This document shows, piece after piece, positions 1 to 64,000 of a stretch of 64,000 bases of DNA (its first letter is position 1; every line of letters starts with the position of its first letter). Both the position numbers and the translations under genes were made by a program. Where the stretch lies: positions 83,373-147,372 of the forward strand of contig JAULBX010002225.1 in the NCBI GenBank assembly GCA_032358255.1, in the 5' to 3' direction. The notes under the pieces are model-generated. The model was not told where the DNA came from, searched no databases, and saw only the letters and a program-made list of their open reading frames with translations. Source of the stretch: Heterotrichella gracilis. Lineage: Eukaryota > Sar > Xanthophyceae > Tribonematales > Xanthonemataceae.

Positions 1-297
1 ACAAGGTGGGGTGGGTCAGGTGTTTGTATGCATCCGATGCGCAGTAGGGGTCCTCCACAACATGTTAAATGCATCAATTCCCCTCTCCAACCAGAACACC
101 CTACCCACAACCCATCCGTTAGACCCACGATTATACCGAGCGCATTGCGATGTTGCATACAGCTGCCCCCTCTATCTATGCGGATGTCATAGACAACGTC
201 TTCCAAGTTTGGTTCAACCGACAAAACTCCATCCACTAGGCAAGCCCACCCAGAACCCTTAACCGCCGCCCACAAAAACCCACCCCACCCCCCTCAC
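1..297. other. Left-edge stretch, probably cyclase intron
   Basis: The last visible cyclase exon ends at 298 with a donor (reads GTGAGG on the minus strand). No stop codon ends the cyclase frame there, so the gene is expected to continue past the left edge and this stretch is read as intron. I see no coding exon, RNA gene or repeat in it. Confidence 0.5.
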
Positions 298-3200
298 CTG
301 GGTGATATCCGGATGCTCCACAAATTCATCGTCATAGGTCCTCAGTGAGTAGCAGCGCAGGTCACCCTGGTCAGGCTTTACCCTATCTAGGGTAATGTCG
401 TACGTGAAGATGGGCATGGGCTTGGCGCTGCCCTTCACGGTCACGCAATCGATCTGGCGCACGCGGGAGCTGCACGAAAGGGTATTGTTATGGTTTTTGC
501 TTGACTGATACCGATTGACGGCCACGCAGTCGATCTGGCGCATGCGGGAGCGGCACAAAAGGGTATCGTGAGCGTTTTTGCTATGGCGTCGTTAGGTCAC
601 TGCCAGCCTCTCAATCTGACGCACGCAAGAGGTGCATGGGAGGCAATGTGAGCAGGGATTGTCATCGTGGAGTTGGCATTCACATGCCACATTAATTTGC
701 AATGTTATTAGTACATTCACACGACAAATGATGTATGGTACTTCATACCCAGGGTAGAAAAAGAAGTAATCTCTACAGAGCGTTGTAGTTCACATGGTGT
801 TGATTGTTAACAAGTGCACATACCTCACTCCTGGGGACAGGAGGTCCACAAAATCCCCAGACAGCAGGATGCTGGTCCCAAACTGCTTGGTGGCGGCCTC
901 TAACCGGGATGCCATGTTCACATTTGGGGATAGGTAGCTGGCGTCAATCTTGTACTCCGAGCCGATAGCCCCCTCGATTGCCCACCCCACATGCAGGCCC
1001 ATGCCCATGCGCACCTGCAGGTAGATTTGAATAAACTCGATGATACCAAATAAGGTATCAATGAGAATTATGTGAAAAGGCAATGCCCGTGCGCACCTGC
1101 AGATGGAGCGTATGTGGTGTGTGGTGTTTGTGTGGGGTGGTGTGTATGCCTTGTGGTATGGGGGAAAGGTGCACCGCATGCATACAATTTGAAGGGTTTT
1201 GCTTGGCGCACTTTATTTACCCTGCTATTGGCCTCACCTGGTACCCCGGCATACGGGCCATCAGGTCCTGCCGCTTGCCAGGGTTGAGAGTTTAGGGTTT
1301 AGGGTTTGGCACGGTGCAGGATTACCCCAATGGCGCCCTTACCTGGTACCCCGGCATACGGGCCATCAGGTCTTGACGCTGGCAGAAGGATTGCAGGCGG
1401 GAGGAGCGCTTTAAGGCGGCCTGGGAGGCAGGGCAAACAGTGAATAGGATGGAGCCCATGAGATCTGGTACATGTTGACATTGATGCAACGCACGTAAAA
1501 TAAATGTACTTTCATATAAAAAAAGGAGTTTAAAATTACCAATGGCAGTAACGTTATGTTGTACAACAAAAAGTACCGGGATATCTGCATGCCTTACTTC
1601 AAGCACAAGGGTTTTGAATCTCACCGAAGGGCTCATCTGGATGATTACAAATGATGCCAGCGCCCGATCCGCCAATGCAACCCCTCCTTAATGCCCTGGC
1701 TATTTTATTACACATGATTAGGGGTGTTCCATAACTTATAACGTTATGTAACTTTATAAGGTATATAACGTTATATAACGGTTATATGAAACAAGTACCC
1801 TGATTTTGAGTTATATATAACTTTAGGGGGTTAGGGTTATATACCCCTGAAAAAGGTTGCCACATAAAGTCCACAACCCTGCAAATCCATACTTGAAGGT
1901 GCCGTATGGGCTCCAATACATGATCTTCAGAGCCAATTTCCATTATTTCTGCTCCCACAGACAATACATTGCCACAATTGTGCTCTAGAGTCATTTTGGG
2001 TGATAAGGGTTTAGGTCAGTAGAACCCTACTTTAGGGTTTGTGATTCTAGGGAAACCCTAGTAGGGTATCAGAGGAACAGTGCACCGCTTTTGTTCCAAC
2101 TTACAAGCTGCTTTGGCGAACCAAGACCCACGTGTGTGTATTGAAAAGGATTTTGAATTTAATTATCCAGTCCACGCAAGTGAAAGGAAAGGAAACTGAA
2201 ACCTGAAACTCGATTTTTGTGATTTTGGGGTCACGCATAACTTCTAATATAACTTTATATAACTTATAAAGTTATATATAACGTTATATAACGTTACATG
2301 AAAATCTCATAGAACCCTAAGGAACACCCTTACACATGATGCATCAGCTCACCTGGATGATCACAAACGATGCCAGCGCCCGATCCGCCAGTGACCCCTC
2401 CTCAATGCCCTGGCTGTTGGACCGGCTGGGGCCCAGCTCGGCACCAACCTGCAGCGGTGGTGGTGGGTGTCTTAATTTTTTTGGGAGAATTTGTGTATGG
2501 ATAGGGAGCGTTCAGGAATTGCATCATGGGGCCTAGCTCGGCGCTAACCTGCAGCGGTGGTGGTGGGTGGGTGGGATGGGGTGGGGTGGGGTTGATCCAC
2601 GATCCACAGTGACTCTAAATGTGCAGAAATAGGGGAGGGGTGTGAGGGTGTAGAGGGTGCAGGGAGGGTGCATATGTAGAGAGGGGCTTGGAACAGGACT
2701 GGACAGGAATTACATGGGGTAATTTCCACTCCAAGCTCAGCGTCCACCTGAGCGGTGGTGGTGTGGGGTTTTTTTTTGGGAGAATTTGTGTATGGGATGG
2801 GAGCGTTCAGAAATAGCACCGTGAGGTTATAGGGTTTACAATGGGTGTGGTGGGCAAGACAAGTCTCGGAAGTAATTAGGATTTTGGGTGGCAGGCCATG
2901 GAGGAGGAGCGCTGATGCATGTATGATAGTTTGAGGGGTGAATAGAGTGTGTGCACATGTGTACACGTCCTCTAATCAACACCCCCTTGGTTGTTTTCTT
3001 GGATCCCCACCTTTGCCAGGTTCATCCCCAGCAGGGTTGACTTGAGCTTGGCACTGATGGTAGGTCCCCCACTGGCCTTCCTCCCCGTTTCGGGATCCTC
3101 GAACTTCCACACCAGCAGGAAAGCGTCACCAATGTTTTTATTGGCCGCGCCCCCGTGCAGCGCCACCTGGCGATGATGCAGATAGGGTCACGGGTCAGAT

Positions 3201-6200
3201 CAGGGGTAGGGGTAGGGGCTGGGGTAGGGTTGGATTAGGGTTTTGGAATAGGGTGTCACCGTGGCGCACAGTGGATGAATACCTGAAGGTGGATGCTACT
3301 TGGTGAATGAATGGATGAATACTTGGATGGATATTTGGAGAACCTTGGTGGTGTCCGTGAACTGGCAGATGTTGCACAGTCGTGTAGGTCAGGGTTACCA
3401 TTAGGGTTTCTCTTGTCAATTGATGTTTAAACATTTTCTGTTCAGGGCTAGGGTTTGGCTTTAGGGTTTTATAACCCCAACCTCCATATGGACGATTTTA
3501 GCGATGGAGTTGACAACCCAATTTCAGGGCTAGGGTTTGGGTTTAGGGTTTTGAACTTACCTCCATATGGACGATCTTAGCGATGGAGTTGACAAACTCC
3601 ATGACCTCCTCCTGCAGAATCTCAGTGGTATCTGTAAACTGACGGATGTCGCAGAATCCAAAGATGGCCCGCACCTTGCGCCCCGGTACCATTGGGTTGA
3701 GGTCCCCCCCGCTGCGTATGTTGTCTGCTATCACCTTGCCACCTGCGGAGGGTGAGGGATGGGGTTTAATTGTTGGATGGCAAGTGGCCACTGGTCAACC
3801 ACCATTACCGAGTTACACCCGCCATGCACATGCCATGCGTCATCCCTATTGCTGGGTGAGGGATGGGGGGCATATAATGCTAGGGGCATGCTTGCCAGGC
3901 CACGTTGCAAAATGCAGTATCCAAATACTGAAACAAATCGTGTATTGTACCCCGCCGCACCTGCATCCCCAAACCCCACCGCCAGCAGCGAGCAGATCTT
4001 GACAATCGACTTCTCAAGAATGGTTGTCTCCATTTGCGCGTGCCCCTTCTCCTCGTCAAGGTGGATGGACTGGGCGGACAGGGGGTTCTCGCTGATCTCC
4101 TTCACCTGCACAGGGTTGGTGAGGGCAATGGAGCAAAGCCATGTTGCTCCAGCACATAGCTTATTGGTGTGCCCAATGGCCCCCTGACTCCCCACTGTGC
4201 ATCTTTCTCCCTTTTGTTTGGCATCTCTGTTCGAGGCGAGCGCCACCAACCCCAGAACAGTCCCTCAGGTTTCCTTGCCTGAGTTGCCTTGAAAATTTTA
4301 CTTCCCCAACTTTGCCAGCAAAATCGCACCTTGTGCACCATGCGCTCCAGCGGCTGCAGGACCAGCTTGTTTGCATCCCTGCTGAAAGCCAGGGCCCCCA
4401 CCCCCAGCACAAGGATGATGAACACCGTGAGGCAGATGTTGAGGATGGCCTGGAGCCTGCTCTGCCATTTGTGGTCGTAGACTGCGAATGTCTGGAAGCA
4501 TGGCTGCCCCTGGGTCTGTGAGGGGGAGGTTAGGGTTTTAGGTTTTTGGGTCTTTTTAGGTTGGGATTTCGGGTTTTTTCAGGGTCTGGAAGCAAGGCTG
4601 GACCTGGGTCTGTGGGGACTTGAGAGGAGGGGTGATAAGTGAAAAGAGAGGGGGGATGGGTGTGCAAGTGTGCTGGGAGATGGTGGTCAGTGAAACCCTG
4701 GGGTGTGAAAGGACACAGCTGCCCTACCATGGCCATGGTCATATTCCTTTCAGGCCATTCTTTTTTCGTTCTTTTCTATCGTTTTTTCCATCCCCTTTGT
4801 TAAATCTTTTCGGATTCTGTGTTTACCATCCGTGTTTACCATCCCCGCACCTGCGGCGCGGTGCACGTGGCCTCGGGATACTCCAGGCTGCCCTCAAACC
4901 CAGACGCAGAGGTCTCCGATGCCCGCCTGGGGGGGTCACTGAACGCCAGGGTGTTGTTGCACACCGTGAGTGAGAGGATGAGCTGATCCCAGCGGGCGCC
5001 CAGCTTGTAGGAGATGCCGGATTTGAACTGGGCCACCGCATCGTCCACCACCTGCGGAATTTATACTTTAGCGTTTAGGGTAATTTTGATCCCAGCGGGC
5101 GCCCAGCTTGTAGGAGATGTTGTATTTGAACTGGGCCACCGCATCGTCCACCACCTGCGGAATTTAGGGTTTAGCGATTAGGGTATTTTTGATCCCAGCG
5201 GGCGCCCAGCCTGTAGGAGATGTTGTATTTGAACTGGGCTACCGCATCGTCCACCACCTGCGGGTTTAAGGCTTAGGATTAGGATACAGGGTAAATGTTT
5301 GTAGGAGTCGAACTGGGCCACGGCATCGTCTACCACCTGCGGGCTCAAGGTTTTAGGGAGTAGATTTTAGGGTAATTGCATGGATATGGGCGGTAGATCT
5401 TGTGCTGGTTTTTCCCTCCCCACATGAATACTGTCCATATTTACGCATTTTTCTCACCTGGTTGTACCCCCCTTGGTCCAGGCACATCTCATGCACCAGG
5501 CGCAGGCCGCCGCCATCGTATCCCGGGGGCTGGGGATACCAGGTGCCAGTGGTTTCAAAAACGGGGAGGATGAACAGCATGGCAATTACACCCACCACCA
5601 CCTGCAGAAAAGAAACAACGAAGATTTGAACAACCAAATATCCAATGTTGAATAAAAACAGAACAAACAGGAAGTGAGTGTAGAATTAGTAGTACAAATA
5701 CCCTAAGAACACATTACACTACACCACACCACACCACACCACACCACACCACACCACACCACACCCCACCACACCACACCACACCACACCACACCACACA
5801 ACACCACACAACACCACACAACACCACACCACATTGCGCATCCTGAGTGTACCGCACCATGCCACCTGGCGCCTCCATGTCTCTACTTGAGTATGGTGAG
5901 ATCAGAAAGCCACACCACACAACATTGCCCATATAAGGTTTAACCACACCACACCACACCACATTGCCCATCCAAGGTTTCACCACATTACATCACAGTG
6001 CCCATCCCTGGTCTCACCTTGCGCGTGGTGAGGTCAGACAGCTTCTCCCCCACCCTAAATCCTAAACCCTAAACCCTAAACAGTCTCACCTTGCGCGTGG
6101 TGAGGTCAGACAGCTTCTCCCCAACCCTGCTCTGCTCCCCTGCCGCCATCATCTGCTTCAACAGGGCGGGTTCCATGCCCTTGCGAGCCTTCACCTGCGG

Positions 6201-7397
6201 CATGCATGCAATGTGCTTGGTACAGTATTCCACCACATAAACCCTAAACCCTAGACATGTGCTTCAGCAGCACGCGTTCCATGCCCCAGCGGGCCTTCAC
6301 CTGCGCTGTGGTTCATGCATAGCTGGCTGTACTGCAACAATCGTTTAAATGCAAAGAATTTTACTATTTGACTGTAGCTAAAGTAACTCACCTGTGCCAT
6401 CTGCTTCTACACGCGCAGCACACGCAGCACACAAATGTACCTAAATGCTGGAAATAGTTCCAATCAAATGTAATCAAATGTGATCAGCTCACCTGCGCCA
6501 TCTGCTTGTACACGCGCAGCACGCGCAGCAGGCGGATGAGGCGAATCAGGCGGATGATGCGACCCACGCGCGCGCCTGCGGGCAAATGAAGGGTCTTGGA
6601 TCAGGGTTTGGGCTGTCTAGAGAGTGCGGGGATGGGATAATCATGGATGATCCGGTGCACCAATTGGATTGTGGGCGGCTACCCTACTGCGAATCCTAAA
6701 CCCTAAACCCTAAACATTGGGATTGTTAGTACTCACCCAGCTGCGAAGCCCTGCTTGCTCGCGTGATGGATGTCTGGTCAACCGCTGCGCTGTTGGATCC
6801 CGTGAGGATGTCCACAAAAAACGCAAAGTCAAACAGCAGGGAGAAGGTGGCGATGGTGTCCACGTAAAAGTAAAACCTGAACAGGTAGTTCTCCCTGGAT
6901 AAGCTCCCAAGAATGAGCTCGGTGGCAAAATAGAAGACGCACAGGCCGGTGATCGCCTGGTACTTTTCGTCCACTGTGGCTGGGAGGGCGGCGTCTCTGA
7001 AGTCGATGTAGAAAAGGGAGAGGAGGACAAAGAAAACCATGAGGAGTATGGCGAGAGGGGAGTCGAGGAGGGCGGCGGTGTTGACCTTCCATTGGGGTCT
7101 TGCCTTGCCCTTGACATCGTCGAAGATGTTGGTGGATTGCTGTGCGCCGGCAGGTGATTTGGGGTCTGGGAGGCTGGCTGCGGCTGACCTCCTCTGGAAG
7201 ATCTGCAGGGCTCGCTTGTTTGGGGAATAGGTGGGGCTGCTGACCCTCCCCAGCTCAACATCTGGCCGGTCACGGGGCCCTGCTTTCCTGGTGGCGGGGT
7301 CTGATGCTGATACAGACACGCTGGCTGATGCATCTGGGGCTGGGAGGGGGTCGGCGGGCCGGTACGCCCTGATGTCTTTCAGGTTTCTTGATGACAT
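298..7397 (-). CDS. Class III adenylate/guanylate cyclase with voltage-sensor-like membrane domain (3' end off window)
   Basis: Membrane nucleotidyl cyclase expected to make cAMP or cGMP from ATP or GTP. Thirteen phase-compatible exons give 800 residues: 6737-7397, 6493-6575, 6090-6194, 5458-5601, 4851-5051, 4330-4515, 3961-4105, 3561-3742, 3011-3166, 2353-2448, 1343-1420, 824-1014, 298-469. The N-terminus has about three hydrophobic segments (one contains LLMVFFVLLSLFYIDF), then an arginine ladder RIIRLIRLIRLLRVLRVYK like an S4 voltage sensor. Two more membrane segments (VVVGVIAMLFILPVF and ILNICLTVFIILVLGVGALAF) flank a loop of roughly 135 residues, followed by a HAMP-like stretch. The catalytic domain has FGFCDIRQFT and NIGDAF, supplying the two metal-binding Asp, and LSPNVNMASRLEA with the transition-state Asn and Arg. 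All key residues are present. Substrate choice (ATP or GTP) is not settled. The start ATG at 7397 is the first in frame. The C-terminus is missing. Confidence 0.9.
505..645 (-). repeat. Two degenerate copies of the start of cyclase exon 13
   Basis: The acceptor edge and first codons of exon 13 (RVRQIDCV, exon start at 469) recur at about 520-560 (reads RMRQIDCVAV) and again, more diverged, at about 598-645. Both lie in the intron before the exon. Confidence 0.75.
1079..1345 (-). repeat. Intronic copies of cyclase exon 12 start and exon 11 end, with telomere-type filler
   Basis: About 1079-1107 repeats the exon 12 acceptor region (1000-1020). About 1236-1280 repeats the 3' part of exon 11 including its donor (1343-1375), reading the same ARMPGYQ end. 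The two exon 11 copies are separated by a TTTAGGGTTTAGGGTTT tract at 1291-1307. Confidence 0.8.
1625..1700 (-). repeat. Copy of cyclase exon 10
   Basis: This segment repeats exon 10 (2353-2448), including the donor edge and the LADRALASFVIIQ coding stretch. A MITE now separates it from the original. Two further partial copies of the exon 10 acceptor side lie at about 2520-2570 and 2715-2765. Confidence 0.8.
1719..2332. mobile_element. Non-autonomous hAT-like MITE, 614 bp
   Basis: The left end reads TAGGGGTGTTCC and the right end is the inverse of TAAGGGTGTTCC, a 12-bp terminal inverted repeat with one mismatch. It is flanked by an exact 8-bp direct repeat CACATGAT at 1711-1718 and 2333-2340. 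An 8-bp target-site duplication with a GGGTG-type terminus is typical of hAT elements. Next to each end are AT-rich tracts rich in TATAACGTTATA. There is no transposase reading frame, so it would need a helper in trans. It sits in the intron between cyclase exons 10 and 11. Confidence 0.8.
3340..3535 (-). repeat. Copies of cyclase exon 8 parts with TTTAGGG filler
   Basis: About 3340-3400 repeats a middle part of exon 8 (3620-3660). About 3480-3520 repeats its 3' end (CTCCATATGGACGAT region, original at 3561). The pieces are linked by repeated tracts containing CAGGGCTAGGGTTTGG and TTTAGGGTTTT, present both before the copy and just before the real exon edge. Confidence 0.8.
5082..5345 (-). repeat. 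Three tandem intronic copies of the start of cyclase exon 5
   Basis: The first 60-70 bases of exon 5 (encoding VVDDAVAQFKSG) with the acceptor CCGCAG/GTGGTGGACGATG recur at about 5087-5152, 5190-5262 and 5300-5342. Each keeps a usable AG acceptor (rightmost copy shortened). Spacers carry telomere-like variants such as TTTAGCGTTTAGGG and ATTTAGGGTTTAGCG. A copied exon start read on in frame soon meets a stop inside the spacer. Confidence 0.9.
5714..5836. repeat. (ACACC)n microsatellite
   Basis: About 120 bases of nearly pure ACACC pentamers, drifting to ACACAAC units near 5800, inside the intron between cyclase exons 3 and 4. Shorter related tracts follow at 5910-5965. Confidence 0.95.
6000..6435 (-). 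repeat. Copies of exon 3 and exon 2 edges of the cyclase, with CCCTAAA filler
   Basis: About 6012-6055 repeats the donor end of exon 3 (LSDLTTRK) and is joined to the original at 6090 by CCTAAATCCTAAACCCTAAA at 6057-6081. About 6262-6302 repeats the start of exon 3, joined by ATAAACCCTAAACCCTAGAC. About 6388-6430 repeats the end of exon 2. Three independent exon edges within 450 bases show the same arrangement. Confidence 0.9.
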
Positions 7398-11541: not shown

Positions 11542-11840
11542 TCACATTTTGATTCCTTGAAGGCGGGAAGGCCCCCCATGCACACGCTGCCTCAACTGCC
11601 ACTCAATCCCACACGCCCAACCCCGGGCTGTCGCCCCAAAGACACAGGCTGTTCCAGCTGGCAGTGCCCCCCCACATACCGTTTCCATATCACACTTCCC
11701 TCCACATGCTGTTTCAGCTGGCTCATACCTTGGCTTCTTGTAGGCTGGCACCCCACCATCTAGGCACAGGCTGGGCACTGCCAATGAGCCATTCAGCTCC
11801 TCTGTCTGATGCGCATCCACTCTGTAGCGCTCCCCTTGCC
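11542..11840 (-). repeat. Third copy of the UVR8 C-terminal exon
   Basis: On the minus strand this reads ERYRVDAHQTEELNGS, then VPSL and GGVPAYKKPRY. It is clearly homologous to the real UVR8 C-terminus but carries V-D in place of the V-P of the VP motif. It lacks the stop after KKPR and stays open to 11542. A GAG acceptor ahead of it would be in phase with UVR8 exon 9. Confidence 0.75.
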
Positions 11841-11964
11841 CCCACGCTGCCTCAGATGGGAATCAATACCCCCCCACATGCTGATCCGCCTGGCTGTGCA
11901 CCGGACAGGGGGTTTCACCTGGCTGATTTGGCTGCCCCCAATCCCCGTCCTGCGCGAGTGACGC

Positions 11965-12084
11965 TCACACCCTTGGCTTCTTGACGGATGGCACCCCACC
12001 AACAGGCAGGCTGAGCACCGTTGCCGACCCGTCCAGCATCTCGGCATGGCCCAGAACAACCGCATAGCGCTCCGCCCCCCAACG
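11965..12084 (-). repeat. Second, intact copy of the UVR8 C-terminal exon
   Basis: Between an acceptor GCAG (before 12084) and a TGA at 11965-11967 lies a 39-codon open frame in the phase of UVR8 exon 10. It reads ERYAVVLGHAEMLDGS and ends GGVPSVKKPRV. The Pro of the VP motif (VVPD in exon 10) is Leu here (VVLG). It could serve as an alternative last exon giving a UVR8 without the VP motif. Confidence 0.8.
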
Positions 12085-12165
12085 CTGCCTACGCTGGGCG
12101 GTGACTCCCCCCCTCCGCATGCTGATTCGGCTGGCTGCGCACCGACAGGGGGTTTCACCTGGAGC

Positions 12166-15100
12166 TCACACCCTTGGCTTCTTGTATGTGGGCACCCCAC
12201 CGTCAGGCAGGCTGGGCACCGTCATTGACCCGTTCAGCTCAGCAGGTTGGTCCGGAACCACTGCGTAGCGGTCCGCAGGGGGGATGTAGGAGGCGTCGGT
12301 CTGCAAATGCGGAGGAGGGAACATTGAGCAATCTCTCATAAACAAAATAAGCAATCTCACCCATCAACATGTACAGTGCACCCACCATATCGCCCCAAGC
12401 TGCAACACGCGCATCACCACATGATGACCCTATTTCCTGATGGAGGCCCATGCAGACCGCCTCGCCCCCACTTCCAGCACATGCGCCCAACATCCATCCA
12501 TCTCCCAACTTAACACCGCCAATAGCTGCAGTCCTGATGACACTACACCAGGACCCAATCCACACCGTAGTCCTCCCTTATCCCCCCCACGCATGTGCTC
12601 CCATTGAGCCCCTTCAACTCCAAAGTGCCTGCTGTACCCCCATCCCCCACCCACCCACCACCATGCATAAACGCGCAATCCTCATGAGCTCCCACTCTCC
12701 CCCCGATAAAACCACCCCCCTACCCACCTGTGCCCCCTTGAGCGCCTCCAGATCCAAAGTGCCTGCTGACAGAGCAGCCACCTTGCGAGGAAGGTTCCTG
12801 CGGGTGGAGGTGATGGTGAGGGGGGGGGGGGGTACTGAGGCCATGGTTGCGTGGCGGTGAAGGGAATAGAAATGCATGAGGGCACAGCACATTCACCAGC
12901 ACTCCCCCGCATCGCCACTGCCAGGCAGTTCTCCACCCACCCCACGCACACCATCACTATCCCACAACTAGCCCTGCAGGCTGACATGGCCCACTAAAAC
13001 CCACCCAAAACCCTGAACCCCACCCCGCGCCACTCACTCGTCCTGCAGGATGCCGTGCCCCAGCTGGCCGTTCACTCCCCTGCCCCACGAGTACACGTTC
13101 CCCCCTTGGGTCACTGCCAGCGTGTGCCTCCACCCACACGACAGCAGCGCGGTGGCCTCGCCCTCTGGCAGGCGCACCCGCGAGGGGGCGGCCGCGTCGG
13201 AGTTGCTGCCGTTGCCGAGTTGGCCAAACTGCGGGTGGGAAAACAGGGGTTCGGCCGCTGTACATGGTTGGATGAGGCTCAACTAGGGCACGCAGGGGGC
13301 TGCAAAGGTATGCTGCATGGCTGTGTGGGTGAGTTGATGTAGCGTTGGCAGGCGCATGCGCGAGGGAGCTGCCAAGGCCAATTTGCTGCTTTTGCCAAAC
13401 TGTGGGTGGAGGTGAACAGAGGTATAGCAAAAGTCATGCTAGCCATCGTGGATCAGAGCAATACTCTGCCTGCCTTTACCTCCGTCACTGCTGCGTGGCG
13501 ACAACCGCCACCACCTCCAAAGGTATATTGCGGTCGATATCCTCACTTTTTGCAACGCCACTATGCCAATACCAATGCCACCAGCCAGCCATGCATCCAT
13601 AGTACTATTGACCTTGTTTTTCATAACAGGCAGAAGCACTCCCTACCTTGTTCCAGCCCCATGCGTATAGCCTGCCCTCGTCATCGGCTGCCGCAGAGTG
13701 GCGCCAGCCTCCAGCCAGGGTCACCACGCGCACACTCGCAAGGCTCTCGATGCGCTTGGGGATGAGGTGGTCGCTGCGAGATGATGAAAAGCATTGGACA
13801 AAAATGCTTGGAAGAAAGGGAAAAGAAGCTGGCCATGCAGGAATGGCAAATGTGGTGGGCGCGCCACTTTTGATGCCAGGCGCTTGGGAAGGAGGCGGCT
13901 GCTGCGGCAATATGAATGAGGACCTGCATTTACATTGCCACATCTCTAAGGTTCACCATTTCTGAGCCGCTGCGGGTACTCATTATTTATTCTTATTCTC
14001 TAAAGGTACAGGGCTGATATTCAGGATTTCCCCGTGCATGGCCTCGCTGTGTCCACCTGCCCACCCACATGCATACACACCCCAACCCATGCCATCTGCG
14101 ACACCATGACATGCCCTGCTAGGACCTGCGTTTAGGGTTTTGTGGTTCCCTCCGCACCTGAAATCCCCGTGGCCCAGCTGGCCATACTCTGACCACCCAA
14201 AGGCCTACACGCCCCAAATCATGCTGATGATGTTCATGACATGCCTTCCTAAAGTTGGCGTAAGTTCACGTCACACCCTCCTAGGGTCTAGATTTAGGTT
14301 TTTGGGTTTTTCTCGCACCTGAAGTCCCCGTGGCCCAGCTGGCCATACTTTGACCAGCCAAACGTGTACACACGCCCCTCCTCGTCCGCTGCGATGGAGT
14401 GCCGCCACCCACACGCCACCTTGGTCACCTTGGTACCCTCCAGACCCACCACCTTCACGGGGGTGTACCTGGGGAAGCAGGGTAGGGTATTAGGATCAAG
14501 GTTTTAGGAGCGGCCTCCCGGCATGCCGCGTTGGCAGGAGGTGGGTGGGTGGGTGGGTGGGTGCACGAGATGGGGCGGGTGGGCGGCCATGCATGTGGCA
14601 TATATGGTGGTGGTGATGGGCGGCATATGCATGTGGCATATTGGCGGATCCAAACCTTGTTTCCAACCCCATTTGACACCCCAGCCTCAAAATCTGCACT
14701 GGCATTCCATCGCGCAGGTTACTACACCCGCCCCACCCCTACGACAACACCTGTGCACAGTCTTCCCATGTACAGCGCCATGAACTCCTCTGGTGTGCAA
14801 TTTCCAACCCCACCACCTCCGCAAATACCCCATGCACCTTCCCAAGCCCCATTGCCTCGCACCTGTCCTGACACTCGCCATCGCCCAGGTTGCCGTAGCG
14901 GCCCCACCCCCACGAGTACACCTGCGCCGACGAGGGAGCACATAAGCAGTGGGAGATATTGAAACAATGCACGTCAGCAGCGGGTGCGTTGCAAATGGCG
15001 CATCAGCCGGTGGAAGACAGTGGCAGGTACCAAAGCTTGCCGTATCCCCCTAGAAGAGTGCAGTGTGGCTGGTTGCAAGGACCATGCAACTGCTTTACTT

Positions 15101-16519
15101 GCCGCCATAAAAAGCCTACAGCGCGGCAGGAGTCTCACACGGCATGGTGTATAGCCGTGAACTCTACATGTACGCACTGGTGCACATGTATGCTGCGCCA
15201 CACCATGTGGGCACTCTGGTGTGGTGCTACACCACAGCGCACAGCTCAGATGCCCCTGGGGGCAAGGCAGCGCAGCAGCAGCAGCAGCAGCACCCACCCC
15301 AGCCCAGCCCTGTAGCGCGCCATGCACTACATGTGCGCCAGTAACAATTACCCAGCATGACACCCGATAGACCCACCTCTCCCTTGGCTGTGGCGGCCAC
15401 CGAGTGCTCCGGCCCACCCTCAACCGTAAACCCTAAACGTGCAACTGTAAGCCAACCCACCTCTCCCTTGGCTGTGGCGGCCACCGAGTGCTCCGCCCCA
15501 CATGACACGCTCGCCACTGGCTCCTGCACAACAGGGAGAAGGGGGTCCATCACCAGCTACCTTGAGTGTATGCACAGGTTGCTCGCTTTCACCAGGCCAA
15601 ACCCGCTGATGGATGTAGTGCAGGCATTGGTGGATTCGGCTCGCGCGTGGCTGGACCAACATTAAACCCTAGACACCCTGGTTGGCAGCAGGTCACTTCA
15701 AGTAGTTTGAGTGCATTCAGTGCAGTGCAGTGTGTAGCACAGCAAATCTACGTGTGCATCCCCTTGTACCCACCTTGAGCGCCACCACCTTGGTCGGGTG
15801 GAGCACATCGCTGTTGTTGCCTAAGCCCAGCTGCCCGTTCTGGTTCCTCCCGAAGCTGTAGAGGCCACCATCAGCAGTGATGACCACCGTGTGGGTGTCC
15901 CCACACGCCACCTGCTTGACGCCTAGCCCGTGTAGGGCGCTGATCTTCTGGGGAAGGAAGACATCTCTGCAGTCCCCGTGGCCCAGTCGCCCAAAGTCAC
16001 CCCTGTGCAACAACCACCATGCCGCAACCTCAACTGCTGATCTGGGTATTCTTACCAAGGTGGGGACCAGACAGTCTGTTGAAGAAATCTTCGCATAAGA
16101 GATGTGCAGGGAGGGGTCTGAAGCAGTGCTATGCAGCAAGATCACAGGGCCGTACCATCCCCAGCTGTACACCTCAGCTGGTCCAGGCGAAACTGCAACG
16201 GTGTACTCTGCCCCGCAGTAGACGCTGCGTACGCCAGCCTCCGAGATTGACCTCACAGACTGGGGAAGGGTGCGTTCTTCTGCGTCTCCATGGCCCAACT
16301 GCCCGTCCTCACCTCTTCCCCACGTTACTACCAAGCCGTTGCCTGAATGATGACATACAAAAAATAGTCGAAAACAGGATACATTTTGGAGAGATGGTTG
16401 AGAGGCACGTGAAACATCGGAGGGCTCGTACTTAGCAATGCAGCTGAGTGGGAGCTCCCGCAGCCAATAGCCACCACCGACGCCGTGCTAAGCTGCGCTG
16501 AGGATGCTTCCTCTGCCAT
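12166..16519 (-). CDS. UVR8: UV-B photoreceptor UVR8
   Basis: Seven-bladed RCC1-type propeller that senses UV-B through tryptophans; in plants and Chlamydomonas the dimer splits on UV-B and signals through COP1. Ten exons join in phase: 16432-16519, 16156-16342, 15774-16002, 15461-15523, 14863-14921, 14319-14468, 13647-13773, 13038-13228, 12728-12797, 12166-12300. The product is 432 residues (plant UVR8 is about 440). RCC1 repeats with GQLGHG-type turns run throughout. Three consecutive GWRHS/GWRHS/GWRHT motifs match the positions of the plant Trp triad, which separates UVR8 from ordinary RCC1 proteins. The C-terminus DRYAVVPDQPAELNG has the VP motif known to bind COP1. The ATG at 16519 opens a typical UVR8 start. 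Nearly every intron holds a copy of an adjacent exon edge. Confidence 0.95.
12530..15432 (-). repeat. Intronic exon-edge copies within UVR8
   Basis: About 12590-12640 repeats part of exon 9 (AGTLDLEALKG). About 13330-13410 repeats the start of exon 8. About 14105-14215 repeats the end of exon 6, preceded by GTTTAGGGTTTTG. About 15365-15420 repeats the end of exon 4 (SVAATAKGE), linked to the original at 15461 by CGTAAACCCTAAACG. These are separate short segments inside the listed span. Confidence 0.85.
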
Positions 16520-18090: not shown

Positions 18091-18093
18091 AAG

Positions 18094-37755: not shown

Positions 37756-43410
<5,655 letters not shown>

Positions 43411-43514
43411 TCACTGGCTGATCATACTCATTACCTCAATGAGCAGCTCAGCTTATGCACTGATCCGATCCGAGCTGAGCTGAGCGTGCGCAGATCACCA
43501 GCTGAGATTGTTTG

Positions 43515-43850
43515 TGAGACGACACCAGCGAGGCCGCGCTGTTTGATGCATGGCTAGAGGACCGCAAGGCCACGGGCCAGCCGCGCAGGGGGTGGCACAG
43601 TGGCCCGCAGCGGTGCAGTGAAGCTGAGTATCACCGCCAGATCCTGGTTTTCATCAGCTGCTCAACAGCAGCTGTCAGCTCGTATCAGATCAGTGTTTAC
43701 AGTGATTATCAGCTGAGGTTGCCCTTGTGAGATGCCAGCAAGGGCGCAAACTATGATGCATGGCTAGAGGACGGCAAGGCCAAGGGGCAGCCCCTGCAAG
43801 GGGTGGCAAAGTGGCCCGCAGCGACGCGGCGAAGCTGAGCACTGGCTGAA
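43515..43850 (+). repeat. Two downstream copies of the Obg terminal exon
   Basis: About 43519-43627 and 43733-43850 repeat the last coding part of exon 11 (TSEAALFDAWLEDRKAKG.. to the stop region), each with substitutions and small indels. They follow the Obg stop at 43408-43410, so three terminal-exon units stand in tandem. The first copy lacks a base in the CTGCAGGGGGTGGC stretch. Confidence 0.9.
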
Positions 43851-45044: not shown

Positions 45045-48000
45045 CTACGACGAATTCATGGGGACCACTGACTCAGGGGTGGTGTCAGATGTGGGAAATG
45101 TCGCCCTGCACATTTCCCTGATGTCAGCCTCGCTCTGCAACCCCGGGGCCGCCTCCTGCTTCGCCAATCCCCGGTTGATTTTCCGGATGGTGGGCCCTAG
45201 GGTTTCCGCCGCGCCCTGGTGGTACCACGGGTGGGACATGAGTGCAGCGATGGAGGGGCGGCTAACCGGGTCTGAATGGAGCATAGAGGTGAGGAGAGAC
45301 CTGTGGGGAGGGTGGGGAAAATTGGTGTCATTTCCAGCTTGATGTACCGTACGTGGGTGGACCCATGGCGCATAATCAATTAAAACTTGGCCTGCGCGAT
45401 AGCGCGCGGCGGTTTTATTCATTACATTTCGCCGCTGCGCGATATCATGATATATTAAATCGAAAGTTGATGGGGTGGGGGCAGGCTGGGTTTGAGTGGA
45501 GCATGGAAACCAGGAGAGACCTGCGGGAGGGGTGGAGAAAATGGGTGTCGTTTCCAGATTGAAATAACAGCAGAAGGTCAATATCCAAATGCTTTTTGCA
45601 TGTTGGGCCCTAGCGCTTGCACTGGTGTGTCAAGGGTATACCTAGGTGCGCAAAAGCGGGGTGATAGGGGCAGACTTAAAAGTTTCCCTCTGCAACCCCG
45701 AGAAACCAACTACTGTACTGTACACCACCACCCTCGTGCGCCCTACCTGCAGTTTGGGCTGAGCGTCTCTGCCAGTGCATATTCATGCTTCATGAGGGCC
45801 CGGAAGTAGGCCTGGAGGGCCAGGTTGGGCGCAGCGCTGCCCTCCGCAGCCGCTCGCCAACTGTGCTCAAACGGGTGCCTGCAAGGGGGACGATCAAGTG
45901 GCTCAGAAGGGAAGAAACGGGGGAGAAATTTACAGTCAACGCTGCGCCAGCTGTGCTCAAACGGGCGCCTGCAAGGGGGGAGGAGCAGGCGGCTCGGAAA
46001 GGGAGGGCACAGGGGGAGTAAAATACCATAACACAGTGATACTTGGCTGTGCTTGGATTATCTGATTACTACTACTTACATTATAACTACATGAACATAC
46101 AGTTTTTGAATGCCTGATTGCATAATGGAGGTCGTGATGTGACTTGAGGCTTGGGCAACATTTGCAAGACCAACAAATCAAGGCTTCATTGCTGCCATTC
46201 TGGCTATGCTGAAACGAGTGCCTGCAATAACCACCACCAGCAATGTCCAGGGGCGTGCCCACCATTGTGGGCCACAGTGCCTACATAGGGCTCCTCATGG
46301 GACTTCTAAAGGGTTTTCAACGGGGGATTGCTATGGGGTTCTGTTTCCTCCCGCACCCACCTGCCGTGCAGCATGAAGTACAACACCACCCCGCAGGACC
46401 ACACGTCCGCCTTGTGACCGTCGTAGCTCACAGCATTGACAAGCACCTCTGGTGCGATGTACAGAGGGGTGCCAACCAGCGAATGCGGCGCAGAGCTGCG
46501 GCACACGTCCTTTGAGAGCCCGAAATCGCACACCTTGAGCTGCGGTTCACAGTTTGGGGGGCAGTCCAGCAGCAGGTTGTCAAGCTTGATGTCCCTGTGG
46601 AGTGGGGTTTGTGCATTTTAGGGTTTGGGTTAGGGTCTTAGGGTTTAGGAGCAGGGTGAAGGGGCGGTCCAGCAGCAGGTTGTCTAACTTGATGTTCCTG
46701 TGGAGTGGGGTTTGTGTGTTTAAGGGTTCTGGTCAGGGTTTTAGAGTGGGTGCAGGGTTGTGCACAGAGCTGCAATTGCCCCATCTCTTCTTTGTTTTCA
46801 TTACAAGCAATGGAATGCATTCCATTCCATGTGCACGTGCTGTCCTTCATTCTCCGCTGCAAAGCCCAACAGCCGACACCCACCCACCTATCCCATCACG
46901 ATCCCGCCACCCTACCCTAACGCTACCGAGGATTGATCCCCCTCCCTTCCCCTCCCCCTCACCGATTTGTAATCCCCTTCTGCTCCATGAAATCCACCGC
47001 TGCCAGCAGCTGCTGAAATAGGTTCCTCGCCCCCCGCTCCGACAGCACGCCATACTCGCCAAGCGCAGCCGACACCGGGCCCCCGTTCATGTACCCCATC
47101 ACGATCCCCTGGGGTGCAGGCACAAAGAGGTTCAGGAGGTGCTCACCCTAAACCCTAAACCCTAGTCGAGCGCCCAACAGCTGCGCCTTAAAACCCACCC
47201 ACACGGTTCTTGTGGCCTAGCTCGTGTGCCCAGTGTGCATGTAAGTAAGTAAGTAAGTATTTGCTTTCCAGCTTCGAAGCCAGGTTAGCATGTCTGGGTA
47301 TGCCTAACCCAAGTCCTAGAGCCAAGGCTTACCTGACACTGTTTCCAGTGTGGCAGATGGTGGCCAACCAGTGTGCATGTAGTGGAACAATAAGCTACTT
47401 CAAACTACTTGATCTTGTCAGTTCTATCAACCAGAAAGGTTCAGGAGGAGCCCAGCTTACCACTCCATCCCGGGTGAGCACGAGCTCCCGGAAGGGCACC
47501 ACGTGGGGGTGGCCGGTGAGGGAGCGCAGGTTGAGCGCCTCCCGCACCACCAGCTGCAGCAGGTGGGGTGTGTGCACCTCCACGTACTTTATGGCAACCT
47601 GCGGGGGGAGGGGATTGTTGTCAGAATTCCTCAACTGGAAGGCCATGGAAATGGGTGTGTGTGTGTGTAGCGGGTGGTGCTTTGAAGCAAGGAGCACAGG
47701 GCTGGAGGCTAGACCCTAATCCCTAATTCCTAGAGAGTGCACGCAGGTTGAGCGCCTCCCGCACCACCAGCTGCAGCAGGTGGGGCGTGTGCACCTCCAC
47801 GTACTTGATCGCAACCTGCGGGGTGGATGCGATTTGAGTACCACAACGGAAAGGGCAGCGCAGGAGCGCACAAGTTAAGTCCCTGAACGATAGGTAGTGC
47901 ACGCAGGTTGAGTGCCTCGCGCACCATCAGCTGCAGCAGGTGGGGCGTGTGCACCTCAATGTACTGGCAATCTGCAGGGTGGGAGGATTGGGTGGTGAGT

Positions 48001-57454: not shown

Positions 57455-57758
57455 CCCCTCCAACGGTCGACCCAGCCGTTGGCTCAGCACCTGAGTTTGA
57501 GTTGAGTCTTGAGTTCAACTTAGCAAGGGGTCGCAGGTTCGAACCCGAAGGGTAGCGATATTTTTCGAGTTTCCCTGAACTTTGCGATGGGATAAAATGG
57601 GGAGCACGAAAGTGCGGTAAGCGGCACGACTGGTTGGCTACCACCTGCCACACTGGAAACAGCGTCAGTTAAGCCTTGGTTCTAGGACTGGGGTGAGGCA
57701 TACCCAGACATGCTAACCTGGCTTCAAAGCTGGAAAGCAAATTTTTACTTACTTACTT
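57455..57758 (+). mobile_element. tRNA-derived SINE with (TTAC)n tail
   Basis: The 304-bp element is flanked by an exact 13-bp direct repeat ATTGCAATGCCAT at 57442-57454 and 57759-57771. Its head has a pol III A-box-like TGGCTCAGCAC at 57480-57490 and a perfect B box GGTTCGAACCC at 57536-57546, at tRNA-like spacing. A body of unrelated sequence ends in TTACTTACTTA. A second, truncated copy lies at 47244-47367. This is the layout of a tRNA-SINE mobilised by a LINE (family rule). It may still carry an active promoter. Confidence 0.88.
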
Positions 57759-57771
57759 ATTGCAATGCCAT

Positions 57772-59020
57772 GTGTGGATGTTGTGCGTGGTGGTGCAGGT
57801 ATACTGGTGCCACTACTGGCAAGGCAAAATGCTCCATAGCTGCGCGTACACCTAAACCCTAAACCCTAGCGCCTCCATAGCTGCGCGGATACCCTACCAA
57901 GTTCACCGGTAGATGGCAATTGCAGTGCCCCACATGCATGGGGTCACGTGTATCACCGATCCACAACCCTTGAACCCACTGCTCGCTATGCAAGCCACAC
58001 GGTACGTTGAAGTAGAGCTAGCGCACCTGGAACAGCAGGGTGGGGCAACTTGCACACCAAGTGGAGCTGTGGACGACTTTGGCGCTTGGGTGCATGACAT
58101 GCCACTCGGGCCAATGCCACGTCCCAGAGATCTACAAATAGCGTCCCGTGCAGAGAAACGTGAAGCGAGAGTAGTGCAATGAAATGCGTTGATGGTAGGT
58201 CGTTGTACGGGAATATTCTGCTCCTCTACGTTGCCACCTGTGGGCAAAGTTGCTAGATTAGATAATAAACCGCGAAATAGTGAAGGAGATATAACGCAAG
58301 CGTGCAACCGGTGAAAAGATGTTTACAAAAGCGGTGCAACACATACACACGACAAAGCAAACCCACCTCTCTCCCCACTTTCGTCCTACTGTGAGTGTGG
58401 CCACCGGTTCTCGTGCACACCTCCTTTGGCTCAACCCTGACTTGCTTCGAACCCTACAAGGGCACAGGCGCCAGCATTGCTTTAACATCCTGTACTCGGA
58501 AAGTGCAAGTCTGCAGGGTCACGGTAGCGCAGGTAGAGGCCTCACTAAACCAGGTACAACTCCCAACCTTGCGAATGCATGCATATGCATGCATGCATCC
58601 CTTCCAGACGCACACAACACAGCGTGCACCCCGTCTACACCCACACACCACCGCAACTGGCAACCTGCACACGAATGCTTGCATGCGCACGAAAAGAAAA
58701 CTCGTACCACAGGAACCCACAGGCAGGATCTGTGCCTAGTCCGCCTGCACTGGCTGTATATCTGTAGGGTACTGTGCCCAAGCCTTTTCCCTCACCACCG
58801 CACTTGCAAATAACCACACATACCCCATCGGTAGCGCAGCAGGCTTGGCCACGCTCACAGTGCGGCCCCTCACCCACCCCGCCCCTCCATCCTCTCACTC
58901 TGCCCCGCCATACCCCACCCCCAACCCACCCACCTCTCCACCATGCTACTCCCCAATTCGTCAATCTTGTCCTCATTTCTCATTATCCTGCCCTGTAGGG
59001 TGAGCATATCAGCACCAGTC
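57772..59020. other. Upstream region of the allophanate-hydrolase-like gene
   Basis: No exon of an amidase or of any other recognised family was found. It contains a short CCTAAACCCTAAACCC tract near 57851-57867 between two CTCCATAGCTGCGCG copies (57832-57846 and 57872-57887), the same copy-filler-copy layout seen in introns. Confidence 0.5.
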
Positions 59021-60514
59021 ATGGCCGGCAAGCTGTTTCAGCTGGCTGTGTGCGGCCTGCACCTGAGCGGCCAACCCCTGAACCACCAACTCACCGAGCT
59101 CAGCGCGACACTGGTGCGGACGTGCAACAGCGCGCCCACCTACAGGTAACGTCTAGGGCATTTTGTACCTCTTGTCAGGGATTTTGGGTTGTGCTCGCTA
59201 CACAGAACAGTGTTACCCCCGGCTGTGTGCGGCCTGCACCGTAGCAGCCAACCATATAGATACAGGTTATGACGTACAACAGCATGCCTCCCATACACTG
59301 CTGGGCGGGGGCGCGTGGGGGTTTGGGTAGTGGGTAGCAGTGCCAGGCAGGGCTGGTATGTGGCACTGCAAGGGTTAGGAGGTTAGGGTACTAGGATGCC
59401 AGGATTAGGGTCAGGGTCGGGGGTAAGGTTAGGAGTAGAGTTGAAATGAGGGTCAGGGTTTGCATGTGGCACCCCAAGGGTAAGGTTAGGGTATAGGGTT
59501 CAGTGGCTAGGATGTGCTGACTCAAGTGAGCATACTGCTTGCCAGGAGGTGCAACAGCAAACCCTGTGAATGAGATAAGAGCTTGTTTCCACAACCGTGT
59601 GCAGGCTGTATGCTGTCACCGACCCCGCCTCGCGCATCTGCGTGCCAAGAGTTCGAAATATAAAATATTATCCACTAAGTTTAATTGAAGCATTGTGAGT
59701 TATTGTTTTTCCACAATTATCTGCAGGCTGTATGCTGTCACTGACCCCGCCTCGCGCATCTGCAAGCCAGGGATGATAAAAGTGACGGATGGGTCGGGGG
59801 GGCCAGTGCACCTGGAGGTGTGGGAGATGCCGCTGGAGCGGTTTGGGGAGTTCATAGTCAAGGTGAGGCAAGAGAAACCCTAAACCCTAATCTACAAACC
59901 CTGGACAAGGGTTTCGGTGCACCTAGAGGTGTGGGAGATGCCGCTGGAGCGGTTTGGGAAGTTCATGGTCAAGGTGAGGCGAGGCAAACTCCTAAATACA
60001 GCACCACCTTAAATGCACGTGCTCACATAGCACCCGTGCCCACATAGCAGCACCATGATCCTGCACCCCTCACTCGACCCCCACTCCCACCCACCCACCT
60101 ACCAACTCCACCCGGAAATTCCCGTCCCCCCCACCAGGTGCCTGCTCCCCTTGACATTGGCACCGTTGACTTCAAGGGTCACACCTTAAACACCTACTCC
60201 CGTGCACACGCTGAACACCACACACCGCTGCACTGACACGCCCCACACCATCTGAGCCACAACCATCCCCATAACAGAATAACAGAATAATGAAACCATC
60301 CCCATGAGTCCACTCTGCAGCTTACATAAATTTTCCTCCCCTCCCTCGCCCCCACCAGGTGCCTGCTCCCCTTGGCATCGGCACCGTTGACCTGGAGGAT
60401 GGCGCCAGCGTGAAGGGGTTCATATGTGAGGGGTGGGTGGCGCAGGGGGGGGAGGGTATTGAAGACATTACGGGGCTGGGCAGCTGGCTCACCTACCTGG
60501 CCAGGCAGCAATGA
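59021..60514 (+). CDS. Stand-alone allophanate-hydrolase C-terminal-type domain protein
   Basis: Three exons (59021-59145, 59727-59862, 60359-60514) join in phase to 138 residues. The sequence reads LFQLAVCGLHLSGQPLNHQL, then APTYRLYAVTD, HLEVWEMPLERFGEFI, VPAPLGIGTVDLEDG and VKGFICEGW. This pattern (HLSG-PLN, VWE-P--FG-F, PAPLGIGTV, VKGF-CE) is the C-terminal domain found after the amidase domain in allophanate hydrolase, and in small stand-alone relatives. No amidase domain is visible upstream to 56.9 kb. The exon start is preceded by an acceptor (CTGTAG) at 58998, and the frame is open back to it, so an upstream exon is possible. A role in urea/allophanate use is inference. Confidence 0.75.
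59595..60180 (+). repeat. Copies of three exon edges in the allophanate-hydrolase-like gene
   Basis: About 59600-59650 repeats the start of exon 2 (GCAGGCTGTATGCTGTCACY). 59911-59975 repeats its end with donor (VHLEVWEMPLERFGKFMVK), after a CCCTAAACCCTAAT filler at 59878-59891. 60134-60176 repeats the start of exon 3 (VPAPLDIGTVDF). Every internal exon edge with a neighbouring intron is echoed. Confidence 0.9.
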
Positions 60515-62555: not shown

Positions 62556-63758
62556 ATGGCCACAGCCACCACCACCAGCGCCTCCGCTCACCTCCACCCC
62601 CCACCCCCCCACGCCACCCACCTTCCCCCCCGAACCCACCTGCACCGCCACACGCTCCAAAGCACCTGCTTCAACTCCTTAGCCAAGCCCTACCAAAACC
62701 CCATCAGGACCCTAGCCACCACCACCCAGCGGCGCAGCACTGGGAGGTGTGGGCAGGTCACCCGATGCGCGGCCTCATCTGCAGCGGAGGGTTTTGGCGG
62801 AGGGTTTAGGGTTCCTGAGGGCGTTTACAAGCAGGAGGAGCCTAGCCTTGACAGGGACGAGTGGAAGGAGCAGCAGCGAAAGAAGCTGCGCACGGTGAGG
62901 ACACCCTCTGAAACCCTGCACACACTTTAAACGCACAAAGTTTACCATTTAATCAACCTTGCAGAGTTTATCATTGAGCTGTGCCAGTGAGTGGCTGTGC
63001 CAACCGCTACCACACCAACTCCCTCTCCCCAGGTGTTCAGCTTCCAACCCTGGGGGGTGCACTTCAGCTTGTCGATTTGAATCCTGCACCTAGACTGTCA
63101 ACCCTAAACTTTAACCACACACCCACACACCCCACCATGCAGGTATTCACCTTCCAGGCCTGGGAGGGGCACCGCAGCAGCAAGCGATACCTGAGGCACA
63201 TGGCCGGGATATTCTCGTGAGTGGCGCAATAACCCTAAACCCTAAACCCTACACATGCAACACAGGCCTGGCAGGCACACTGTCGGCATGGCATGGCAGA
63301 CACATTATCATGGCTGGCGCAAAGCCTATGTGAGGGTTTGGTAGGGCCACATAGGGTTGGGCGTGTGGCCGGGAAGGGAGGTTGATAATCTTGGGGATTA
63401 TCATTATCCCATTATCATCCCCAGGATTCCAAGGCAACTGTCACCAGCAGCTCTGAAAACCCCCTAGCCTGCACCCCCACCATGGCCGCTTGTGGGCTGA
63501 CGTAGCATGGCCCGCACCCTTGCCACCATCACTCAAACACAATAGGAGGAGTAGCAGGATCCATGTCCATGCTTGGGCACAGGTCGCGCATCGCTCGGGG
63601 CCCGGCGGTACCCATTGCATACCCTAAACCCTAGGCACGGTCTAATAGATGTGTATTTATTTGTATGCAGGTCGCGCATTGCTCGGGGCCTGGCGGTACC
63701 CATTGCATATGTGCTGGTGGTTGCAACGTGCGTGTGCTGCTACCAGAGCGCACTGGAG
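62556..63758 (+). CDS. Bestrophin-like chloride/anion channel, plastid type (3' part off window)
   Basis: Bestrophin-family anion channels of the thylakoid (plant VCCN1, algal BST proteins) adjust the proton motive force or carry bicarbonate. Three exons are visible: 62556-62894, 63143-63216, 63671-63758, giving 167 residues in phase. The N-terminus is rich in Thr, Ser, His and Pro, as in a transit peptide, and passes a likely cleavage region near RCAASSAAEG. The diagnostic entry follows: VFTFQAWEGHRSSKRYLRHM, then IFSSRIARGLAVPIAYVLVV into the first membrane segment. The gene continues beyond 63759 (GTGAGA donor). An upstream in-frame ATG at 62502 is an alternative start. Whether it conducts Cl- or bicarbonate cannot be judged. 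Confidence 0.8.
63010..63640 (+). repeat. Copies of bestrophin-like exon 2 and exon 3 starts
   Basis: About 63027-63062 repeats the exon 2 start with its acceptor (reads VFSFQPWGVH against VFTFQAWEGH). About 63580-63616 repeats the exon 3 start (CAGGTCGCGCATCGCTCGGGGCC), joined to the original at 63671 through CCCTAAACCCTAGGCAC. A CCCTAAACCCTAAACCCTAC tract also follows exon 2 at 63233-63252. Confidence 0.9.
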
Positions 63759-64000
63759 GTGAGAAAACTCTTTTCAAGGGTGTAATGGGTTTTGGGTGGG
63801 TTTTGGGTGGGGTTTGTGTGCGCGACACTCGCAATGGCATCAACATCTTCTGCCATTGAGGGCATCGATTTCGATTTATAATTGTACCAAATTTATATTT
63901 AAGTTGTGCTCTTGTCCTGTATTATACAGTGGGAGCCACGTAATCGAGTAAGGTTTCAGTGAGCAGAAACGGGGGGGGCACTTTGATGCCCAGGATGTTT

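Follow-up and report, generated by a model that had tools for sequence, protein, structure and literature searches.

The stretch analysed here, hereafter the window, comprises 64 kb of the genome of the xanthophycean alga Heterotrichella gracilis (positions 83373-147372 of contig C25, GenBank JAULBX010002225.1; genome of 68.5 Mb in 903 contigs). Pfam backs seven of nine window proteins, namely a cyclase, an RCC1/UVR8-like protein, an amino-acid permease, an LCM methyltransferase, a protein kinase, an alpha/beta hydrolase and a protein with the allophanate hydrolase C-terminal domain, while the other two were without a match. The window also contains an Obg gene, whose protein, as given by the gene model, is 60-66% identical to its top database matches (the named ones near the top are from Trebouxia, Coccomyxa and Myrmecia). 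By that one search, which returned no close named relative, the protein would most likely be that of a green alga of the Trebouxiophyceae. In these genes, tens of bases of an exon edge and the adjoining splice site are repeated in direct orientation within the neighbouring intron, and the functional copy and this intronic copy (hereafter echo) are often parted by telomere-type TTTAGGG repeats. A first-pass annotation, made from the letters of the window, had described more than 30 such echoes, placed in nearly every recognised gene and always direct, and had proposed that a break-repair process made them.

We examined the window together with a contiguous 200 kb of contig C2 (264 kb in total) and, as an additional sample, 27 short loci, each built around a long telomeric tract (7 + 20; locus L001 was omitted because it lies inside the C2 sample). 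Gene models were obtained with a self-trained gene finder without RNA, and all exon-based counts depend on these predicted exons. An initial setting was over-split (1085 introns) and was superseded by a stricter one, which gave 82 genes and 477 introns with a median length of 210 bp in the window and C2. The splice consensus derived from it is MAG/GTRNG for donors and YGCAG/G for acceptors (slash, splice point). Echoes were frequently miscalled as false mini-exons by the gene finder, and the exons of Obg were checked against four homologues.

Local repeats proved to be predominantly direct, as had been claimed. At a score of at least 45 bits and an offset below 1 kb, blastn pieces (not de-duplicated) comprised 48 direct and 2 inverted repeats in the window and, with the same cut-offs, 51 direct and 9 inverted ones in the 200 kb of C2, where 8 of the 9 inverted repeats had an offset below 150 bp. 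A non-redundant list of local direct-repeat pairs (at least 38 bits, offset below 450) contained 112 pairs, 50 in the window and 62 in C2; arrays of three or four copies yield several pairs each, and pairs in arrays are not independent. Over the whole sample the offsets between copies fell into two modes, around 80-110 and 160-220 bp.

A predicted exon was overlapped by at least one base in 108 of the 112 pairs, a density of roughly four such pairs in every 10 kb of the 264 kb sampled, and the overlap reached at least 15 bases in 105 pairs as compared with 68.3 +/- 5.2 under random shifts. The excess of junction-crossing copies that the first-pass annotation had suggested as a check was also observed: an exon boundary was crossed in 92 of the 111 pairs of at least 70% identity (52.4 +/- 4.8 by random shifting) and in 20 of the 26 pairs of at least 90% identity (9.1 +/- 2.6), and exon sequence without boundary crossing accounted for 15/111 and 4/26 pairs, respectively. 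Within the window, 49 of the 50 pairs had an exonic copy (25 acceptor-side and 24 donor-side), so that the claimed number of echoes was borne out, although several of these pairs can stem from one array and three of them (at 11711-12276) may differ in kind. When a coding score free of exon calls was used, the better copy of each pair had a median log-odds of 0.085 versus 0.028 for random pairs, and a score above 0.1 was reached by 45% of the better copies versus 27% of random pairs, which agrees with the exon association but is milder. The pattern is strong and real in both parts of the sample; its genome-wide extent is an extrapolation from the 264 kb and the 27 loci. Echoes were found in most of the genes named beforehand, but the kinase-fold gene has one pair only, which is exon-free, and the hydrolase, methyltransferase and bestrophin-like genes have just one pair each. 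The density was uneven along C2, where duplications were sparse between 63000 and 118000 despite 28% predicted exon.

The usual form is copy-filler-copy, i.e. tens of bases of exon edge plus the splice site placed on both sides of unrelated or telomeric filler (Table 1). At an identity of at least 90%, a copy had a median of 39 exon bases and 9.5 intron bases (the intron part is generally 5-20), and the exon part was the larger in all 18 copies of this class with a boundary crossing at the echo. Several donor copies end at +5 to +8 in the alignments, directly past the donor consensus. Of the 72 pairs tested, 60 had filler unlike what lies past the echo (z of at most 2, telomeric words masked), in a test whose gap range left aside 36 of the 108 exon-touching pairs, overlapping (clean) ones included. 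Arrays of at least three copies were recognised by eye at 4984-5342 of the window, at L047 (four copies) and at L003; in L003, an exon of about 30 bp with both acceptor and donor is present three times with telomeric spacers between.

The telomeric character of part of the filler was examined at several levels. Genome-wide, three tandem TTTAGGG units gave 406 + 428 matches, overlapping ones included, and the reversed control gave none. In the window and C2, TTTAGGG-type 10-mers numbered 453, a count that did not exceed 11 in any of 19 cyclic heptamer controls of the same composition, and the TTTAGGG-type words covered 10.6 bases per kb in introns, 2.6 in intergenic DNA and 0.37 in exons. The share was highest in the youngest pairs: filler contained 30, 46 and 67 telomeric bases per kb at pair identities of at least 75, 85 and 90%, respectively, versus 7-8 in other intron DNA. 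The enrichment between copies that had been proposed was confirmed, with a telomeric tract in 7 of the 21 fillers of pairs of at least 90% identity where 0.8 would be expected (window and C2).

Conversely, when the tracts themselves were taken as the starting point, direct similarity between the two flanks (score of at least 60) was present at 11 of the 37 window tracts of at least 10 bp and at 18 of the 106 tracts in the window and C2, versus 3.1% of 4000 random positions, and all seven telomeric spots named in the first-pass annotation had direct copies on either side at this score. No tract of at least 10 bp scored above 32 for inverted flanks. Among the 27 long telomeric tracts, nine were flanked by direct copies (score of at least 40; copies of 28-95 bp) and none by inverted ones. 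These loci lie outside the training sequence and were picked regardless of exons, and they agree with the exon association, since seven of the nine have a predicted exon in the copies (p = 0.002; the exceptions are L037 and L040). The cleanest copy-telomere-copy structures are L041 (copy 29 bp, filler 22 bp), L040 (35, 24), L037 (28, 24) and the window locus at 6011 (46, 26). At 42347, 46617 and 59875 of the window, the tract sits at the end of the duplicated unit and not strictly in the gap.

Table 1. Echo-bearing exon edges and their fillers in the window (window coordinates).
Feature	Position	Strand	Basis or remark
Cyclase exon end + donor, functional copy	1337..1383	-	91.5% to echo; 41 exon + 6 intron bases
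Intronic echo of 1337-1383	1232..1278	-	Alignment
Filler, 58 bp, with telomeric tract 1290-1307	1279..1336	.	Tract + alignment
Cyclase exon copy 3523-3595 with donor echo 3441-3516 at offset 82; the duplicated unit includes telomere-like sequence	3441..3595	-	Alignment
Cyclase exon start + acceptor with three echoes, period ~103, telomere-like spacers	4984..5342	-	Repeats + alignment
Intronic echo of 6083-6128	6011..6056	-	Alignment
Filler, 26 bp, nearly all telomeric	6057..6082	.	Tract + alignment
Cyclase exon end + donor, functional copy	6083..6128	-	97.8%; 39 exon + 7 intron bases
Exon start + acceptor 6150-6199, filler with telomeric tract 6238-6253, echo 6256-6305	6150..6305	-	Repeats
Exon end + donor 6488-6530, non-telomeric filler, echo 6387-6429	6387..6530	-	93%
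UVR8-like gene, exon end + donor 15455-15501, filler with telomeric tract 15427-15438, echo 15371-15417	15371..15501	-	97.9%; 41 + 6 bases
Possible newborn intron: 31-bp copies 37907-37937 and 37996-38026 with donor and acceptor in register; the intron is as long as the offset (89)	37936..38024	+	In part of the Obg model outside homologue coverage
Obg exon end + donor 38996-39104, echo 39202-39312, offset 206	38996..39312	+	Homologues: exon copy 77-85%, echo 47-71%
Obg exon end + donor 42278-42369, echo 42382-42474; both copies contain telomere-like sequence	42278..42474	+	Repeats + tract
Obg coding end with two downstream echoes, 43518-43628 and 43735-43849	43300..43849	+	Homologues continue through the first copy; gene finder had put an intron here
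Kinase exon start + acceptor 46558-46657, echo 46661-46758; telomeric tract 46617-46649 within the unit	46558..46758	-	Repeats + tract
Kinase exon start + acceptor 47525-47616, echoes 47742-47834 and 47902-47990	47525..47990	-	Repeats + alignment
Allophanate hydrolase gene, exon end + donor 59806-59884, filler, echo 59917-59996; telomeric tract 59875-59890	59806..59996	+	91.2%
Echo 63580-63621, filler starting with telomeric tract 63621-63633, acceptor + exon start 63668-63709	63580..63709	+	95.2%; 3 + 39 bases

The two copies of a pair differ in their subsequent fate. In the 88 pairs of at least 75% identity that entered the comparison (four long ones were skipped), exon and echo mismatched at 10.9, 9.5 and 17.6% of codon positions 1, 2 and 3, respectively, and 78 of the 127 indels between them were single-base. 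This profile fits a freely drifting echo beside a constrained exon, because the echo would change everywhere and the exon mainly at third positions. The echo drifts neutrally, and no coding constraint on the second copy was seen in substitutions or indels. Identities of the pairs ranged from 98% down to about 70%, which argues for a long-running process and against an assembly artefact.

The first-pass annotation had supposed that the process may generate or lengthen introns, and these two parts fared differently, with generation of introns being weakly supported. Among the 377 of the 477 introns that had long enough flanks, an in-register signature (at least 22 matching bases of 40) was present in 3 (0.07% in shuffled controls), and comparison of intron ends with exon ends, position by position, revealed no consistent excess of similarity over shuffled pairs in these 377 introns. 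For the bulk of the pairs the copies do not lie in the same register with an intron length equal to the offset; only 4 of the 112 pairs do, one of which (window position 5019) includes an echo mini-exon. In-register cases are 37907/37996 in the window and 18373/18495 and 169307/169532 in C2, and in-register predicted introns are 34371-34630 of C2 (minus strand) and 21972-22264 of the window. The best window case of intron birth is 37907/37996, with an intron of 89 bp in a gene part not covered by homologues. Because the in-register signature is rare and the ends show no consistent similarity, the process mainly lengthens existing introns and rarely makes new ones.

Splice sites are not the only exon edges concerned. 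By our reading of the sequence, the first of the copies at the end of the Obg coding region would hold the real stop codon. That this end is echoed with its stop in the first copy suggests that any exon edge whose duplication leaves the message intact may suffice, and not splice sites alone. A similar stop-codon echo is present at 90993-91131 of C2.

Several other repeats were noted in the window. At 11711-12276, where the 3' part of the model of the UVR8-like gene is doubtful, there are low-identity repeats (67-77%) that may differ in kind; their three pairs are counted among the 112. Predicted introns of two different genes (about 47109-47460 and 57491-58026) share 136 bp at 92% identity in inverted orientation. 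Direct repeats 0.6-0.9 kb apart (22826-22853 and 23752-23779, 28 identical bp; 23079-23153 and 23662-23736, 75 bp at 76%) lie in a stretch with few predicted exons and are possibly the remnant of a mobile element. One cyclase intron contains AT-rich stretches (1741-1830 and 2240-2300) of repeated taacgttatataacg-like words.

To what extent the exon association exceeds uniform placement was estimated with a simulation in which duplications were placed uniformly, had copy lengths similar to the observed ones, decayed and were detected in the same way. Between 68 and 71% of the simulated pairs detected were exon-free (69% at an identity of at least 90%), whereas the observed exon-free pairs were 4 of the 96 exon-free plus boundary-crossing pairs overall and 2 of 22 at an identity of at least 90%. 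An observed crossing is defined here as at least one boundary in either copy, and the simulation kept exactly one boundary. Binomial probabilities against the simulation were 2e-40 overall and 8e-9 at an identity of at least 90%, values that are indicative because pairs in arrays are non-independent and because of this difference in the definition of a crossing. Copies were also exon-heavy (31/32 at 85% and 18/18 at 90% identity, the copy with more exon being chosen as reference), whereas simulated copies were half exon and half intron. Selection should remove exon-interior events, yet duplications inside introns and between genes should remain plentiful. Judged by this simulation, the preference for exons over intron interiors appears to be strong, and it had not been among the expectations of the first-pass annotation.

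It is probable that the pairs are scars of repaired staggered double-strand breaks, whose two ends were both filled, often supplied with telomeric repeats and then joined, and that splicing hides the scar. Two nicks on opposite strands, about 30-95 bp apart and mostly over a coding exon, would produce two ends with the same single-stranded piece, and if both pieces were made double-stranded, the piece would be duplicated. An end would often gain telomeric repeats or other filler DNA ahead of joining, and the joined product would be copy-filler-copy. Such an event inside an exon would break the gene and be lost, unless the piece carries a donor, an acceptor or a stop codon; in a surviving event, one copy would stay functional, and the other copy and the filler would become part of an intron (or 3' UTR) and drift neutrally. 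Telomere ends are filled in by the CST complex, and telomerase can extend a 3' end, so that telomeric filler would, in our own inference, follow naturally. Telomerase_RBD and Ku domains are encoded in the genome according to a domain search. The nicks, the type of overhang, the enzyme that would add telomeric repeats and the use of the outer splice site are deduced and not observed. The observation of the first-pass annotation is confirmed and its interpretation partly supported: duplication of the flank of a staggered break, with capture or addition of telomeric DNA, is supported by the copy-telomere-copy loci listed above.

Several points weigh against this explanation by break repair. The exon preference does not follow from repair chemistry. 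Most fillers are non-telomeric, including 14 of the 21 in the youngest class, and 18 of the 27 long telomeric tracts are without flanking duplication. The telomeric strand has no consistent side (nearer left/right/tie: G-strand 5/4/2, C-strand 7/4/2), and tract orientation gave no support for telomerase priming, as the orientation is mixed and the telomeric strand does not adjoin the copy that simple priming predicts. CTC1 and Stn1 profiles had no match in this genome, and the same profiles were equally silent in every control genome. A single genome was compared, with no insertion-free allele or relative, so that no event was viewed before and after; a protein scan of viral_contigs yielded no related algal contig. 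Finally, filler on average resembled what lies past the echo slightly more than chance would give (mean z after masking 0.95 +/- 0.28 over the 72 pairs, z above 2 in 12 of them; at an identity of at least 87%, mean 0.60 and 4/27 over 2), and because of this, part of the pair set may be plain tandem duplications.

That ordinary tandem duplication, by slippage or unequal exchange at a uniform rate, produced the whole pattern, with splicing-compatible duplications surviving and their intron part decaying faster, is unlikely. The similarity kept beyond the echo in those 12 pairs is in its favour, as are two almost clean duplications (3441 in the window and 135568 in C2, from alignments), and selection against exon-interior duplications is to be expected. 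However, the simulation of this process gave the exon-free majority described above, as compared with 2 exon-free versus 20 boundary-crossing pairs observed at an identity of at least 90%, and its evenly divided copies do not reproduce the exon-heavy shape; moreover, young pairs have sharp, unrelated fillers, and telomeric filler is left unaccounted for. Clean tandem duplication with faster decay of the intron half was rejected as a general account on the strength of this shape and of the 60 of 72 tested pairs with dissimilar filler, and it may hold for a minority of pairs. A related idea, that introns are born by tandem duplication of AGGT-bearing exon segments and extended later, can point to the few in-register cases and to a published intron gain in potato by a duplication that crosses an exon edge (PMC4974935). 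With so few introns in register, no consistent similarity between intron ends and exon ends, and most echoes lying distant from the opposite splice site, it is very improbable for the pairs and is ruled out as a general source of introns.

Insertion of mobile elements, either introner-like or telomere-linked retroelements with long target-site duplications, would likewise give a copy-insert-copy structure. When fillers were compared between loci across the sample, only telomeric words, few short matches and neighbouring copies were in common, and two fillers searched genome-wide had one occurrence each; there is hence no support for a common element in these comparisons. Usual target-site duplications are also far shorter than the 28-95 bp found here, and we consider this origin still more doubtful. 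Least credible of all is a function of the echoes as alternative exons or as decoys in splicing. Their splice sites are often intact and the gene finder calls them as mini-exons, but substitutions and indels without coding constraint rule out a coding role. Repair of staggered breaks remains the preferred explanation. A wider proposal is that breaks fall preferentially in coding exons (in connection with transcription, splicing or exon chromatin), that telomere-type end healing by telomerase and fill-in is routine in repair, and that splicing filters the scars to exon edges; exon-directed repair might then be a main engine of intron growth, and occasionally of intron birth, in a whole lineage. 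We regard this proposal as possible, although it is rather more likely to be wrong than right.

How introns grow and originate is an old question for which few dated events are available, and this genome offers many datable scars. Scaling about four pairs per 10 kb to 68.5 Mb would give tens of thousands, by extrapolation only. If sister strains show empty sites, the alga could be used to test directly whether break repair supplies intron sequence, whether telomerase or CST acts at internal breaks, and why coding exons break more than introns. The echoes are also a warning to gene annotators, since those with intact splice sites are called as mini-exons.

Plant studies have reportedly described tandem duplications arising from paired nicks. 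In mammalian cells, tandem duplications arise via CST-guided Pol alpha-primase and end joining where a break has complementary 3' overhangs, which can be as short as 43 bp (PMC8355091). Here as well, the duplications are direct, a few tens of bp long and independent of pre-existing repeats, and the fill-in complex in that system is telomere-associated; unlike there, filler that is often telomeric parts the copies, and the copies lie at exon edges. Interstitial telomeric insertions of horse, primates and rodents (PMC7215372) resemble our loci in that telomeric repeats were inserted at breaks, and at a few horse loci the target is directly duplicated, which was ascribed to staggered breaks (pure duplication at 3/66 loci, and deletion, addition and duplication at 2/66). 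By comparison, tracts between direct copies of their target amount here to 9/27 long ones (7 with a predicted exon) and 18/106 tracts of the window and C2, and no empty alleles were seen.

Repair-mediated duplications in vertebrates (PMC2671141) are similarly closely linked and made by break repair, but among 824 donor sequences there, 278 were in introns and 4 were partial exon/intron, whereas nearly all of our pairs touch a predicted exon. The closest published case of intron birth is the potato RdRp gene, where a new intron arose from a duplication across an exon edge (PMC4974935); in both systems the extra copy is spliced out, and here it is mostly an existing intron that grows. Intron gain by end joining is also expected to leave direct repeats around filler; repeats of at least 5 bp flank 19/77 gained introns in Drosophila, no more than the 26/100 of conserved introns (PMC3296678), whereas the repeats here measure tens of bp and clearly exceed expectation. 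Introners share with our loci that the insertions are spliced out, but a common element was not found in the filler comparisons above. Exon-edge echoes with telomeric filler did not appear in the titles and abstract openings of the literature searched, which largely excluded subscription papers. The repair chemistry is known in kind; new, and unexpected to a specialist, are its scale, its telomeric content and most of all its bias towards exons.

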